From NCBI RefSeq assembly GCF_000702605.1, contig NZ_JNIR01000001.1:982501-1046500 (forward strand): DNA of 64,000 nt. Reading direction: 5' to 3'. Shown piece by piece: positions 12,113-17,462 of this stretch (the stretch's first letter is position 1; each line of letters starts with the position of its first letter). Both the position numbers and the translations under genes were made by a program. This DNA is from Exiguobacterium acetylicum DSM 20416. GTDB taxonomy: Bacteria; Bacillota; Bacilli; Exiguobacteriales; Exiguobacteriaceae. The notes beneath the pieces are model-generated. The model did no database searches. It was not told the DNA's origin and saw nothing but the letters and a program-made list of their open reading frames with translations.

Positions 12113-14379
12113 TTAGAGAGAGGTAGTCTTCAAAACATCTTGTGTTTGAAGTAATGTAACAAATGCGGCAAAATCGATTGGGCGTGAGAATAGGTAGCCT
12201 TGACCGATCGTACATCCATAGGAAGTGAGAACCTCTTTTTGTTCAATCGTTTCAATTCCTTCCGCTACGACGGTTAAATTAAGATTCAAGCCAAGCTCGA
12301 TGATCGTCTTGACCATAGGCGATTTTTGATTAGGAGTCAGGCGATCGATGAACGATTTATCGATTTTCAATGTATCAATCGGAAGTTGCTCGAGTACATT
12401 TAAGGAAGAATACCCTGTTCCGAAGTCATCGATGGATGTTTTAATCTGCGAGGTCTTCAAACATTGCAAAATCGAAACGCTCTCTTTGATGTTTTGAACA
12501 ATGCTCTCTGTAATCTCAAGCTCGAGCCACTGCGGGTCAAGAGATGTCTCTTCAAGAATCTCGATGACACGCTGACAGAAGTTTGGATTTTGGAATTGAA
12601 GAACAGAAACATTGACCGATAGAAGCAAAGGTTCGAATCCTAAAAGCTGAAGTTGTTTACTTTGGTAGGTCGCAGTGAATAGGACCCACTCCCCGATTTC
12701 ATTGATCAGACCAGCTTCTTCAGCGATTGGAATGAACTCAGCTGGTGAAATCCATCCGAACTTTGGATGATGCCAACGGAGCAATGCTTCCATACCAATG
12801 ATTCTCCCAGAACGAAGATTGACTTTAGGTTGATAGTAGACACTTAATTGTTGCTCACGTATTGCATTTCGTAAGTATGATTCAATTTCAAGCTTTCGTA
12901 CTAAGTTGGATTGAAGTTCAGTTCCATAGTAAACGAATGTGTAATTTACATTCTGTTTAGCTTGATAAAGAGCTTCAGCTGTATGAGCCTGTATTTCTTC
13001 GATCGTCAAACTTTGGTCAGGAAATATACTGACACCACTATGCGCTACAATATTCAATTCTAACTCCTTTAAACGGATAGGCGCTGCAAGATGAATGAAT
13101 ATCTTTTCATTCACAACAGTGATACTAGATTTCTCTGTTTTTAGAAGCACAATCATAAACTCATCTTCACTGTACCGATACATTTTAAAATTCTCTTTCA
13201 ATACATGTTTTAAGCGGAAAGATACTTCTTTCATGATCTGTTCCCCGACATGATGCCCGAAAATATCTGTGTACATTCGAATCCGTTCTACTTGAAGCAA
13301 TATGAAGGCAAGCGGTGCATGTTCATCTTTGAGGCTATTTTTAGTGTCTAGTAAAAAAGATGCACGATTGCCTAGACTCGTTAATGGATCGATATATGCG
13401 ATTTGGTTTAATTCTGCTAATAATTCACTATTTTTCATGACAGTAAAAGCTTGTCTAATAATGATAAGAAGAAAAATCATAATCCATCCTGTACTTAAGG
13501 CATTTAAATTCCAAGCATAGCTTTGCATCATTAGGATGGAGGGGATCAAGATGCTCGAATAAGGAAAGATAAATTCTTTCTTTGTTGAAACATCAAGAGC
13601 AAATGGATCAATCATACTTTCTTGTCTTGGCTCTTTTTCATGATATCGAGCAGTGTAACCGATAAATAGTAATGCGATAGTCCAAATCAAATCGACACTG
13701 CCACCTGATATATAGCTGTTCTTAATTGTAAATTGTGCAAAAGTGATATCTCCGATGACTTGTAAAAATAAACCGATGATCAAATAAGTCAAATATACAT
13801 TTTGTTTGTTGAATAGAATTAAATAATATAGCGTAATTATAAAAAAAGAATTCCTAAATCTGCAATTTGGAAAAGAAATATATGGGCGCTGTACCACAGA
13901 GACTGCTGATTAATCTGATAGAGCGGATAAAGCAGGTAATGATAACTAATTGAAGTCGCGGCTATCATATAAATCATTGTATTAAAGAAGAATGCCGAAT
14001 TTGAAAATTTTCTCGTTTGATTCAAAAGTTGATTTAACAGTGCAGCAAAGTAGAAAAAGTAGGAGCAGACCCAAGTTAAGGATGATAAGTCCGGTGTAAC
14101 CATGACATGATTCTTAACAAGTAAGATGATCCAAACAAGTGTGCCAAGGGCGGAAAAACTCGTTCCAAGACCTAAAAACATCCAAAAACGTTTAGAAGAG
14201 TCATTTTTAAAATAACTTTTTATAATCCAACTCGTACTTAAAATACCTACGAACAACTGGACCGTGTTTAATAGAACCAATCGCATCCATTCAGATCCTT
14301 CAAAAAAATGGTTCCCATACCAAAATAATAAACCAATTCCGATGGACAGAAGGAAGGGGTAACTTATAGTTGTACGCAA
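12113..14379 (-). pseudogene. membrane GGDEF/EAL protein, split by frameshift
   Basis: Two reading frames form one gene. The first (14379-13837, TTG start behind AGGAAC) encodes six membrane helices and stops after LGILFL; the second resumes at about 13846 with FIITLYYL and continues through two more helices, a GGDEF-like domain and an EAL domain to 12113. The break is in a run of seven T (coding strand, 13841-13847); one more T joins the frames. The layout matches the neighbouring PAS-GGDEF protein (compare ADLGIL and ISGGSVDL with GDLGML and ISGSLIDP). The GGDEF motif is degenerate (SEDEF), whereas EALLRW and DDFGTGYSSL of the EAL domain are intact, so the full protein (about 755 aa) would be a c-di-GMP phosphodiesterase. 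A true mutation, slippage or a base-calling error are all possible. Confidence 0.75.
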
Positions 14380-14498: not shown

Positions 14499-14521
14499 GA
14501 ACTAAAAATAAACCTAGATCT
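14499..14521. repeat. left arm of 23-bp perfect inverted repeat
   Basis: Begins GAACTAAAAATAAAC and ends CTAGATCT. It is the exact reverse complement of 15827-15849 on the far side of the IS. Before insertion the two arms were separated by an 11-nt loop whose core CTCAATTGAG is itself a palindrome. Confidence 0.9.
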
Positions 14522-14531
14522 CTCAATTGAG

Positions 14532-14534
14532 TAG
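14532..14534. repeat. TAG target-site duplication, left copy
   Basis: TAG directly before the left IS end at 14535; the same TAG follows the right end at 15826-15828. A 3-bp duplication is usual for IS3-family elements. Confidence 0.7.
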
Positions 14535-14620
14535 TGGGCTAACCTAAAATTTTGAGACAATATAAAACACCTTCGGAGTGGTACACTTTTAAAAAGTACT
14601 AACATCGGAGGTGTTTTTGC

Positions 14621-14938
14621 ATGGGCAAAAACGTATATTCAAGTGAAGTGAAATGGGCAGTAGTCAAAGATAAGCTGAGTGGTAAGTTAACGACGAGAGA
14701 AATCATGGAGAAGTACGGAATCAAAAATGAATCTCAAATCAAAACATGGATGAGATGGTATCGCTCTAACGAACATTATCGATTTGATCAGCCAATCGGT
14801 AAACAATATACCTATGGACATGGTCCAGATTCTGCGAGTGAGGATGACAAGAGAGAACGACAAATGTCACATCTGAAGATGGAAAATGAGATCTTAAAAA
14901 AGTACATGGAAATCGAAAGAGAGTTGAGAAAGAAGTAG
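14621..14938 (+). CDS. IS3-family transposase OrfA
   Basis: 105-aa DNA-binding subunit. Helix-turn-helix at about residues 8-50 (VKWAVVKDKLSGKLTTREIMEKYGI, then IKTWMRWYR), then a C-terminal leucine-zipper-like helix (SHLKMENEILKKYMEIERELRKK). Ribosomes that slip at 14896-14902 continue into orfB to make the transposase; those that do not make this regulator. Confidence 0.9.
   Translation: MGKNVYSSEVKWAVVKDKLSGKLTTREIMEKYGIKNESQIKTWMRWYRSNEHYRFDQPIGKQYTYGHGPDSASEDDKRERQMSHLKMENEILKKYMEIERELRKK
14896..14902 (+). other. A_AAA_AAG -1 frameshift heptamer
   Basis: In the orfA frame the codons read TTA AAA AAG, so the heptamer is A_AAA_AAG in exactly the slippery phase known from IS150-type elements. 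After a -1 slip the frame is open without a stop through to the end of orfB, giving an OrfAB fusion of about 386 aa. Confidence 0.85.
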
Positions 14939-14997
14939 TCATAAAAATTGTAGAGTTTCTTCGGAGAAAGTATACAATCACCGCCATTCTTAGCGCT

Positions 14998-15783
14998 TTG
15001 AATGTACCAAGAGCAAGCTATTACCGTTGGATTAAGGAATCTGTGAAAGCACCTTCGGTGCTCGAAAAAACCGTCATTGAACTAAGTAAACAGACGAAGT
15101 GTCGGAATGGACATCGAAAAATAAAGGCATTATTACAGCAAATCTATCAGTTAAAAGCCAATCGGAATACCGTACAGAAAATCATGCAAAAACACCATCT
15201 CCAATGTCGGATCAAGCCGAAGCGAAGATGGAAGTCTCAAGGTGAGCGCATCATAACGGCACCGGATCTCATCAAGCGCGATTTCACAGCAAGTAAACCG
15301 AATCAAAAGTGGGTGACGGATATCACCTATATCCAATACGGCAGCACGACGAAATATCTTTCCGCCATTATGGATCTTTTTAATAACGAAATCGTCGCAT
15401 ACAAGTTATACGAGCATCAACAAACGTCTCTTGTGATTGATACGTTGAAGATAGCGCTTGAGAATCGAAACTATCCCGAAGGGGTCATCCTTCATTCGGA
15501 CCAAGGAAGTGTCTATACGTCATACGCCTTTCAAGAATTCGTTAAAAGGAATCACCTAACAAGCAGCATGTCTCGTAGAGGAAACTGTTGGGACAACGCA
15601 GTTATCGAATCGTTCCACTCTAATTTAAAGTCCGAGGAATTCCAGTACGTCAAATTTAATTCACTAAGAGACCATGAGGTCTCTGAACGCGTTACTAATT
15701 ACTTAAATTACTATAACGAAGAACGAATCCAAGAAAAATTAGGCTACCTGACACCGAAAAAATACGGTGTACAGGCAGCCTAA
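14998..15783 (+). CDS. IS3-family transposase OrfB (DDE catalytic part)
   Basis: 261 aa from the TTG at 14998, though normally translated as the fusion after frameshifting at 14896-14902; the frame is open back through that site. It carries an HTH_21 region (EFLRRKYTITAIL, VPRASYYRW) and the rve integrase core with the three catalytic acids: WVTDITYI (Asp), LHSDQGSVYTS (Asp) and SRRGNCWDNAVIESF (Glu). Intact. Confidence 0.9.
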   Translation: MNVPRASYYRWIKESVKAPSVLEKTVIELSKQTKCRNGHRKIKALLQQIYQLKANRNTVQKIMQKHHLQCRIKPKRRWKSQGERIITAPDLIKRDFTASKPNQKWVTDITYIQYGSTTKYLSAIMDLFNNEIVAYKLYEHQQTSLVIDTLKIALENRNYPEGVILHSDQGSVYTSYAFQEFVKRNHLTSSMSRRGNCWDNAVIESFHSNLKSEEFQYVKFNSLRDHEVSERVTNYLNYYNEERIQEKLGYLTPKKYGVQAA

Positions 15784-15825
15784 TCAAGGTGTTTTATATG
15801 TGTCTCATATTGCTAGGTCAGTCTA

Positions 15826-15849
15826 TAGATCTAGGTTTATTTTTAGTTC
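15826..15849. repeat. right TAG duplication and right arm of the palindrome
   Basis: TAG at 15826-15828 is the right copy of the target duplication. The stretch 15827-15849 is the exact reverse complement of 14499-14521. Confidence 0.85.
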
Positions 15850-15910: not shown

Positions 15911-17086
15911 TTAATTTGAAACTTTCAAGTTTACAACTTGGTACGTCGTTTTCGTTCCATTCGTGATGCTATACGCCAGTACACCGTCCTGGTAAAGAGG
16001 AAGGGATACCAACTCTTCAAAGTCCGTCAGGGGAGCAACCGTCTTCGCTTTTAGGTCCGCGTACATCAACTGATTAATACCTTCGCGGAAGATGACTTGT
16101 GTGTTCGAGAGAAAACGAATGCCACTAATCGTCGTCTGGGCACTTGAAGCGGAATAGTTCAGCGTCTTTTGGTCCAATCCGATGGGCTGGAAAATGGCGT
16201 CTCCTTCTGTTCCAAGAGCGAAATAGGTGCCGCTACGACTGAAATCAATCAATCCGGACAACTCTTTTTTATACGCACCATCCAATGTCTCGAGCACTCG
16301 GACGTTCTTTCCGTTTTTGTAGTGAGACGTGTATAAGGTCACGCCGTCATCGCTATCGCGGTGCTCGTACGTGAACAGACCATCTCGTGTTTTTCCTGTT
16401 TTTAAAATGAAGGACTGGAGTGGCGTGATCTTTCCGGTTTTTAACGAATAAGACTTTAACGTGGAAATCGTTTTTTGTTCAGTCGCTTCCTGCGTGATCC
16501 AGGACGCACGTGTTGACGTGACATCGATATGCGGCGGGGACGTATCGAAACGACTTTCGCCAGCATCAAGTGTCGTCACCTGATTCGTCGTAATCTTCAG
16601 TTGGCGAATCGACCACTTCACACCGGTCTTTGTCGGCTGTTCCGTTTCGACCCATAGTAAAAACTCACCTGTACCCGTCATCATCGGGATTGCACTCTTC
16701 GTCGCACGGACGATTTTGTTATACTTTCGTTTTGTATCGTATGTATAAATGGTGCTCTTATTTTTTTGTGGATCGAAGTAGAAAATTTGGTCATGATAAG
16801 AATACTGTGGATTGAATGAAACGTGGAGTTTACTTAGTAAAGGAGAGAGGTCGTATGTCTTCGTTTGACCTAACGTGACGCGCTCTGTCTGCTTTCCTAG
16901 TTCGACCGGATGCTGATTCGTAGCTTCGGTCGTTGCTTTCTTGGATGAAACGTTCACTTGTTCAGATGGCGCGACATTTTTTTGTGCTACACGCGGTGTT
17001 GCTTGTTCTTCTATTATGGAACAACCCGCTATCGTCCAAACGACGGTCGAGAGACAAAAAACGGTTGCGAATCGATGTAATTTCAT
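15911..17086 (-). CDS. lipoprotein with beta-propeller-like repeats
   Basis: 391 aa. Signal peptide with lipobox TIAGC (Cys near residue 22), then a Ser/Thr-rich linker and a long domain with repeated short strands (YSYHDQIFYFDPQKN, GTGEFLLWVETEQP, STRASWITQEA, SGTYFALGTEG, LSNTQVIFREG) reminiscent of TolB/WD40-like propeller blades. Predicted to be anchored outside the membrane; role unknown. Start ATG 17086 follows AAGGAGC; the longer frame from 17140 would overlap the upstream gene. Last gene of a three-gene operon with two small membrane proteins. Confidence 0.75.
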   Translation of the reverse strand: MKLHRFATVFCLSTVVWTIAGCSIIEEQATPRVAQKNVAPSEQVNVSSKKATTEATNQHPVELGKQTERVTLGQTKTYDLSPLLSKLHVSFNPQYSYHDQIFYFDPQKNKSTIYTYDTKRKYNKIVRATKSAIPMMTGTGEFLLWVETEQPTKTGVKWSIRQLKITTNQVTTLDAGESRFDTSPPHIDVTSTRASWITQEATEQKTISTLKSYSLKTGKITPLQSFILKTGKTRDGLFTYEHRDSDDGVTLYTSHYKNGKNVRVLETLDGAYKKELSGLIDFSRSGTYFALGTEGDAIFQPIGLDQKTLNYSASSAQTTISGIRFLSNTQVIFREGINQLMYADLKAKTVAPLTDFEELVSLPLYQDGVLAYSITNGTKTTYQVVNLKVSN

Positions 17087-17123
17087 ATCGGATAGCTCCT
17101 TCAAAGGTTTTCGGAAACGTAAG

Positions 17124-17462
17124 TCATTGCTGTACATCATGTGGAGAGGGAGTCGGACGACGGGTGTGATGAAACACGAGATACCACCACTTTAATGTGT
17201 AGGCGAACAAGAAGACACACATCCATGCCCACGGTCGAAGTGTCGTCAATCCTTCGTAAAAATGTCTGAATTCTGTAATGTCAAGTCGGTACATGGAGTT
17301 CCAAATGAATAATGCATACATGAAAAGCATTGCTAACATCGCTCGAATCGATGCTTTTCTCAAGGCTGGATGCTTGATCGCGACGAAGATTGCACTGATA
17401 AGCGTGATGAAAAAGAAAGCATAGGACAATACCCACACCCACAAATCGTTGGTTGGTCCCAT
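17124..17462 (-). CDS. four-helix membrane protein
   Basis: 112 aa with hydrophobic segments at about residues 8-28, 38-55 and 75-98, plus a Trp-rich last helix (RPWAWMCVFLFAYTLKWWYLVF). GAGGAGG precedes ATG 17462. It lies 18 bp after the 17481 gene and 37 bp before the lipoprotein gene, so the three are likely co-transcribed. Family not recognised. Confidence 0.65.
   Translation of the reverse strand: MGPTNDLWVWVLSYAFFFITLISAIFVAIKHPALRKASIRAMLAMLFMYALFIWNSMYRLDITEFRHFYEGLTTLRPWAWMCVFLFAYTLKWWYLVFHHTRRPTPSPHDVQQ

Follow-up and report, generated by a model that had tools for sequence, protein, structure and literature searches.

Sites resembling intrinsic transcription terminators as probable targets of IS150-like IS3-family insertion sequences of Exiguobacterium and of related elements

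A terminator-like palindrome split by an insertion sequence

Insertion sequences of the IS3 family belonging to an IS150-like lineage of Exiguobacterium lie, for the most part, within sites built like intrinsic transcription terminators. Read from the junctions, the pattern makes it very probable that the transposase itself directs insertion there. A hairpin followed by a T-tract at a gene end is found at most copies, not at all of them. One copy resides in the window, the whole 64 000-nucleotide stretch that was analysed, where it interrupts a perfect palindrome of 23 bp. As the initial annotation had proposed, the flanks at 14499..14521 (left arm) and 15827..15849 (right arm) are indeed exact reverse complements. 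They are separated by the loop CTCAATTGAGT (14522-14532; 14522..14534 with the first TAG copy) and by the element (14535..15825, plus strand, 1291 bp). The TAG duplication is equally borne out: its copies, at 14532-14534 and 15826..15828, enclose the element, the second overlapping the right arm, and its length falls within the 3-5 bp range of the IS3 family. Extended without gaps, the arms reach 36 nt (86%). Up to three mismatches being allowed, the arm sequence occurs at two places only in the 64 kb, with a mean of 0 in 100 shuffles.

The search for an empty site, suggested at the outset, succeeded: the 57-nt site (23 + 11 + 23) is intact in two other Exiguobacterium genomes (L304 and L305), 97.8% and 87.9% identical over some 900 nt spanning the junction. 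The more distant of the two, L305, carries one stem pair changed from A-T to G-C on both sides, while a second pair could still form as G-U on the minus strand (both by eye). These changes would fit a hairpin in the RNA, downstream of ORF 15911..17140 (minus strand, 409 aa, no Pfam match), which lies upstream of the palindrome on that strand and might be the source of a transcript that the palindrome terminates. Folded alone as minus-strand RNA, the site yields -34.7 kcal/mol (z -12.06); it is A/U-rich, and its U-run is interrupted. Elsewhere in the window (12113-14379), a GGDEF-EAL ORF (12113-13897) overlaps a second minus-strand ORF (13837-14379), and the two are possibly one frameshifted gene.

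By its sequence, the element is a member of the IS3 family, with a transposase in two frames: orfA (14621..14938, plus strand), the helix-turn-helix part (PF13518; partial NF033516 match, below cut-off), and orfB (14998..15783, plus strand), the catalytic part with its rve/DDE domain (PF00665, 9.6e-26; NF033516, 271 bits for a cut-off of 160). In the translation of orfB, 35 residues separate D from E, the D35E spacing (by eye). An A AAA AAG heptamer in the orfA frame (14896..14902, plus strand) is likely to be a -1 frameshift site. The ends are common to 10 full-length, near-identical copies in the genome. The left terminal inverted repeat TGGGCTAACCTAAAATTTTGAGACA (14535..14559, plus strand) matches the right one, TAGACTGACCTAGCAATATGAGACA as read on the minus strand (15801..15825), at 18 of 25 positions, and relatives have similar ends; where the hallmark of the family is 5'-TG...CA-3', the window copy begins with TG and ends with TA. 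The first 94 nt of the element also comprise a conserved RNA hairpin (14564..14617, plus strand; -24.6 kcal/mol, z -5.35), with arms largely invariant in 19 aligned elements. Its 3' arm holds a likely ribosome-binding site, GGAGGTG (14607-14613), 7 nt ahead of the orfA start. A scan with a consensus terminator did not return this hairpin among its hits.

Target sites of other copies, relatives and control elements

The idea that a single insertion fell by chance into one palindrome has nothing in its favour beyond the single case. We consider it practically dismissed, contradicted as it is by the counts in other copies and by the controls. In the own genome, 6 of the 10 copies pass an automatic hairpin score, and 8 of 10 are terminator-like by eye, a count that includes L007 and L010 once the exchange of their flanks, described below, is undone. 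L001, L002, L004, L005, L008 and, more weakly, L009 sit in sites where an A-tract, a hairpin and a T-tract follow one another, in sequences that are unrelated (by eye); L003 and L006 stay below the hairpin threshold and do not fit a terminator-like site. The flanks of the other copies had been designated beforehand as the place where the initial proposal could fail. They differ from copy to copy, and most of them rebuild a terminator-like site, so that the proposal withstood this check. It had offered two readings. A preference of the element for palindromes holds as a preference for hairpin sites, most junctions rebuilding a hairpin with a T-tract, split near the loop. A terminator-like palindrome common to many copies stands as regards its terminator-like nature and falls as regards one shared sequence, each copy being in a different site. 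A single shared repeat as the target is thus rejected, the flanks of the 10 own copies being different.

The flanks of L007 and L010 (C1:1684522-1711562), two inverted copies of the element, are swapped: the left flank of L007 joined to the right flank of L010, and the left flank of L010 joined to the right flank of L007, each rebuild a terminator-like site. We infer recombination between the two copies, which would have inverted about 25 kb of the chromosome between them. L072 and L073, in Metabacillus halosaccharovorans, have the same appearance.

Relatives were scored with one script, which retains the best stem with its apex near the junction (score at least 20, loops up to 14 nt) and further asks for TTTT at the stem end. 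Of the 96 loci examined in the target lineage, 34 were dropped (one end, or 45 nt of left flank, missing), leaving 62. A hairpin with its T-tract is present in 34 of 54 close relatives (hairpin alone, 38 of 54) and in 6 of 8 copies of a far clade at 51% (7 of 8); 16 of the 54 close copies thus remain under the hairpin threshold and 20 lack the combination. Held-out relatives, fetched later (31 loci, L273 and L322 being dropped for poor ends), give 17/21 and 20/21, respectively. A further distant clade, at 44%, gives 10/12 and 11/12. A few copies perhaps pass wrongly: L072, with its swapped flanks, L157 and L277, at the base of a hairpin, and L009, with two possible hairpins. Some of the sites are orthologous (L126, L159). 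In Exiguobacterium sp. Leaf196 (L126 / L097), the element's right end resembles a duplicate of the left one, and its terminator is also taken in genome G016 (L159).

Other IS3 elements of the genus were abandoned as negative controls because many of them also lie in terminators. Among these loci (L170-L209), 37 of 40 were scored, L194, L195 and L205 being left out. A hairpin with its T-tract accompanies 10 of 20 copies in clade c315 (hairpin alone, 11/20) and 6 of 11 in clade c322 (10/11). Elements of two IS3 clades have entered one and the same terminator in two species, facing opposite ways (L008, L178; by eye). The exceptions are clade c306 (2/6; hairpin alone, 3/6) and the element of genome G274 (0/8 for both). 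For all scored IS3 copies, this makes 85/140 with hairpin and T-tract, and 100/140 with hairpin alone. The IS3 copies of genome G007 (L181-L186) have similar flanks, for example CAGGGTCTTGCCTGCCTCTGAA and AGTGCGTT, which may mean that this element occupies a repeat of its own.

The G274 element, a 73% relative nested in the close lineage, is likely to have changed its target. Seven of its eight copies share a repeat containing GCAAC (by eye), and L271, L280, L284, L295, L299, L316 and L317 lie in repeats resembling AAAGTTCGCAACGCTA, not in terminators. Arrays of repeats of about 21 bp were found at both of the G274 loci tested (L271, L295).

ISL3 and IS256 elements of the same genus served as controls instead. 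Hairpin with T-tract is seen in 0 of 14 ISL3 and 0 of 5 IS256 copies, hairpin alone in 2/14 and 0/5, while 11/14 and 3/5 of their junctions, respectively, are outside ORFs of 120 aa. Leaving out c306 and G274, 83/126 IS3 copies against 0/19 gives p = 1.5e-8 (Fisher), a value to be read with the fact that copies are not fully independent. A further set, of elements with a PF01609 transposase (21 loci, L229-L249), was fetched as a control and kept out of the scoring because their ends look hairpin-replacing. Many of these elements (about 538 aa, ends GAGGCTGGGACATAA; G016, G004) are located between A- and T-tracts; they may be taking the place of terminator hairpins, as IS1272 is described to do, and one of them, L233, seems to have entered the terminator that L007/L010 occupy in the own genome.

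These figures bear on selection as the cause, with elements inserting everywhere and surviving only in intergenic terminators. Copies are nearly all intergenic, as this would have it, a single junction out of 62 in the target lineage being inside an ORF of at least 120 aa. Against it stand the ISL3 and IS256 elements of the same genus, none of which is in a terminator, and random positions in the same flanks, of which 0.5% of 3720 pass, intergenic positions reaching just 2.1% (of 2733); moreover, the duplication has a preferred place within the hairpin. We therefore hold selection alone to be quite improbable. From the counts in relatives, together with the ISL3, IS256 and random controls, target choice therefore seems to lie with the elements themselves. 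As for host genes, the pairs around 45 hairpin sites (++ 4, -- 8, +- 17, left + only 6, right - only 7, others 3) comprise 17 convergent and 12 same-direction pairs, the rest being unclear or divergent; no clear bias toward the direction of host transcription emerges at these sites.

Position of the duplication and recognition of the site

Duplication lengths in the 62 copies are 3 nt in 36, 4 nt in 10, 5 nt in 1 and 6 nt in 1, while 14 copies are without any of at least 3 nt. The duplication, usually of 3-4 nt, tends to be near the boundary between the loop and the 3' arm: of 38 close and far copies with both duplication and hairpin, 30 have it 3' of the dyad, 5 have it 5' of the dyad and 3 have it at the centre. 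In 59 of 79 right flanks the first T-run comes at a distance of 6-14 nt from the right end, compared with 8.0% of 21910 positions, and the joined flanks usually carry an A-tract opposite the T-tract side.

With targeting by the transposase as the preferred reading, two accounts of what is recognised can be set against each other. The enzyme might read the spacing of A- and T-tracts in bent duplex DNA, hairpins being used since terminators supply this framing. In the close lineage, the duplication begins 10.7 nt before the T-run (sd 2.5, n = 35), on the side of the right end; this distance is nearly constant (slope 0.18 on the gap between tracts), and the distance on the A side absorbs the slack. 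Some framed sites without a stem are used (L083, L085, L089), and the G274 copies with their ~21 bp repeats also speak for spacing. In all, an inner stem of score 12 is missing from 9 of the 44 framed sites in the close lineage, and therefore a stem may not be strictly required. Stems are, by contrast, enriched beyond the framing itself, being found in 25/30 insertions framed by A5/T5 against 25/56 such sites (p = 6e-4), and in 35/43 A/T-framed insertions against 85/315 in 400 kb of the own genome. An apparent helical phasing between the tracts (10 or 20 bp), conspicuous in the initial set – with 2/31 in the gap class 22-27, against 15/52 own-genome terminators – was not upheld in held-out framed sites, where the supposedly depleted class has 4/18; this two-distance version of spacing is rejected. 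Recognition by tract spacing is a tentative reading, to which we give appreciably less than even credence.

Alternatively, an extruded cruciform or a single-strand hairpin might be recognised, with insertion at the apex of the folded target. The duplications of clade c315 coincide with the centre of the dyad (median -0.5, n = 9, copies with hairpins), those of the far clade are roughly midway between the tracts and those of close copies near the loop edge, which agrees with a folded target. At L084, however, the stem is long and the duplication starts 10 bp inside its arm, and the near-constant distance to the T-tract in the close lineage is not expected from apex insertion alone. We entertain this account with the same reserve as the former.

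Common to both, and in line with targeting of terminator-like sites, the transposase complex would capture palindromic DNA between A- and T-tracts, whether bent as a duplex or extruded as a hairpin. The element would thereby gain an intergenic place, where insertion into a terminator probably does little harm. Its 5' hairpin may substitute for the terminator broken by the insertion, and may also shield the ribosome-binding site from read-through transcripts.

Known hairpin targets and the IS150-like branch

Hairpin targeting by mobile elements is already known, from IS1272 and IS1397. IS1397, ISKpn1 and ISPsy8, all of the IS3 family, insert into REP palindromes, and evidence that the transposase sets this specificity is cited in PMC1525189. 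IS1397 shares with the window lineage both its family and its palindromic extragenic targets. It differs in that REPs form a repeated family, whereas the targets of the window lineage are unrelated sequences with a common terminator-like architecture. A multicopy target of the REP type was not found: the flanks of the own copies differ and, in other genomes, the 635-nt left flank of the window copy is matched over its full length in just two, G002 and G006, once in each. IS1272 and TnSha1, of the IS1182 family, enter hairpins – several of them confirmed transcription terminators – with no primary sequence consensus, according to PMC4923244 (see also PMC5678879). Hairpin or terminator targets are thus common to them and to the window lineage, but their transposase is of another family, and they insert bluntly, deleting part of the hairpin and making no duplication, whereas in the window lineage a duplication of 3-4 nt is usual and both arms are kept. 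An element of the IS1182 / IS1272 type is ruled out by duplications of at least 3 nt in 48/62 copies and by the IS3-type transposase. PMC10379815 states that IS911 and IS150 are the only members of the IS3 family for which a specific insertion preference is seen. Our search of the open-access literature, with subscription journals mostly outside and hence weak as evidence, found no report of intrinsic terminators as targets of this family.

IS150 is the type element of its subgroup. Its OrfB is 37.9% identical to that of the window (31.1% for IS3), and in the OrfB tree the E. coli element is sister to clade c322 (100/98), in a topology where deep branches are long or open and long branches meet. 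As in the window lineage, the IS150 duplication is at the 3' loop edge of a hairpin: by eye, 9 of 15 sites have GCCCC, 20-24 nt and GAGGC split at that edge of a sok-type hairpin, 3 more have the same half reversed, and 3 differ, with the proviso that the 15 sites come from a few homologous hok/sok-like loci and are non-independent. Unlike in the window lineage, the automatic hairpin score reaches at least 20 in only 1 of the 15, the longer loops of these sites being missed by the script, and they were thus judged by eye. IS150 repeatedly turns up next to hok genes (L335-L349), where its site is apparently the sok hairpin, and at hokA it occurs in both orientations; a sokA fragment is annotated beside IS150 in the K-12 record. 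The hairpin that it splits we take to be the Sok terminator.

Terminator-hairpin targeting might be ancestral to the whole IS150-like branch of the IS3 family, uniting the elements of Exiguobacterium and Bacillus, IS150 (sok) and perhaps IS1397 (REPs), a view that we place a little short of an even chance. If true, it could explain how these elements persist between genes, their own 5' hairpin replacing the terminator that they break. Landing in terminators would be a way for elements to spread without disrupting genes. It would predict insertion positions and the genes at risk of read-through, and would suggest insertion tools that spare coding regions. A broad lineage with this habit would also make target recognition in the IS3 family testable with short synthetic targets.
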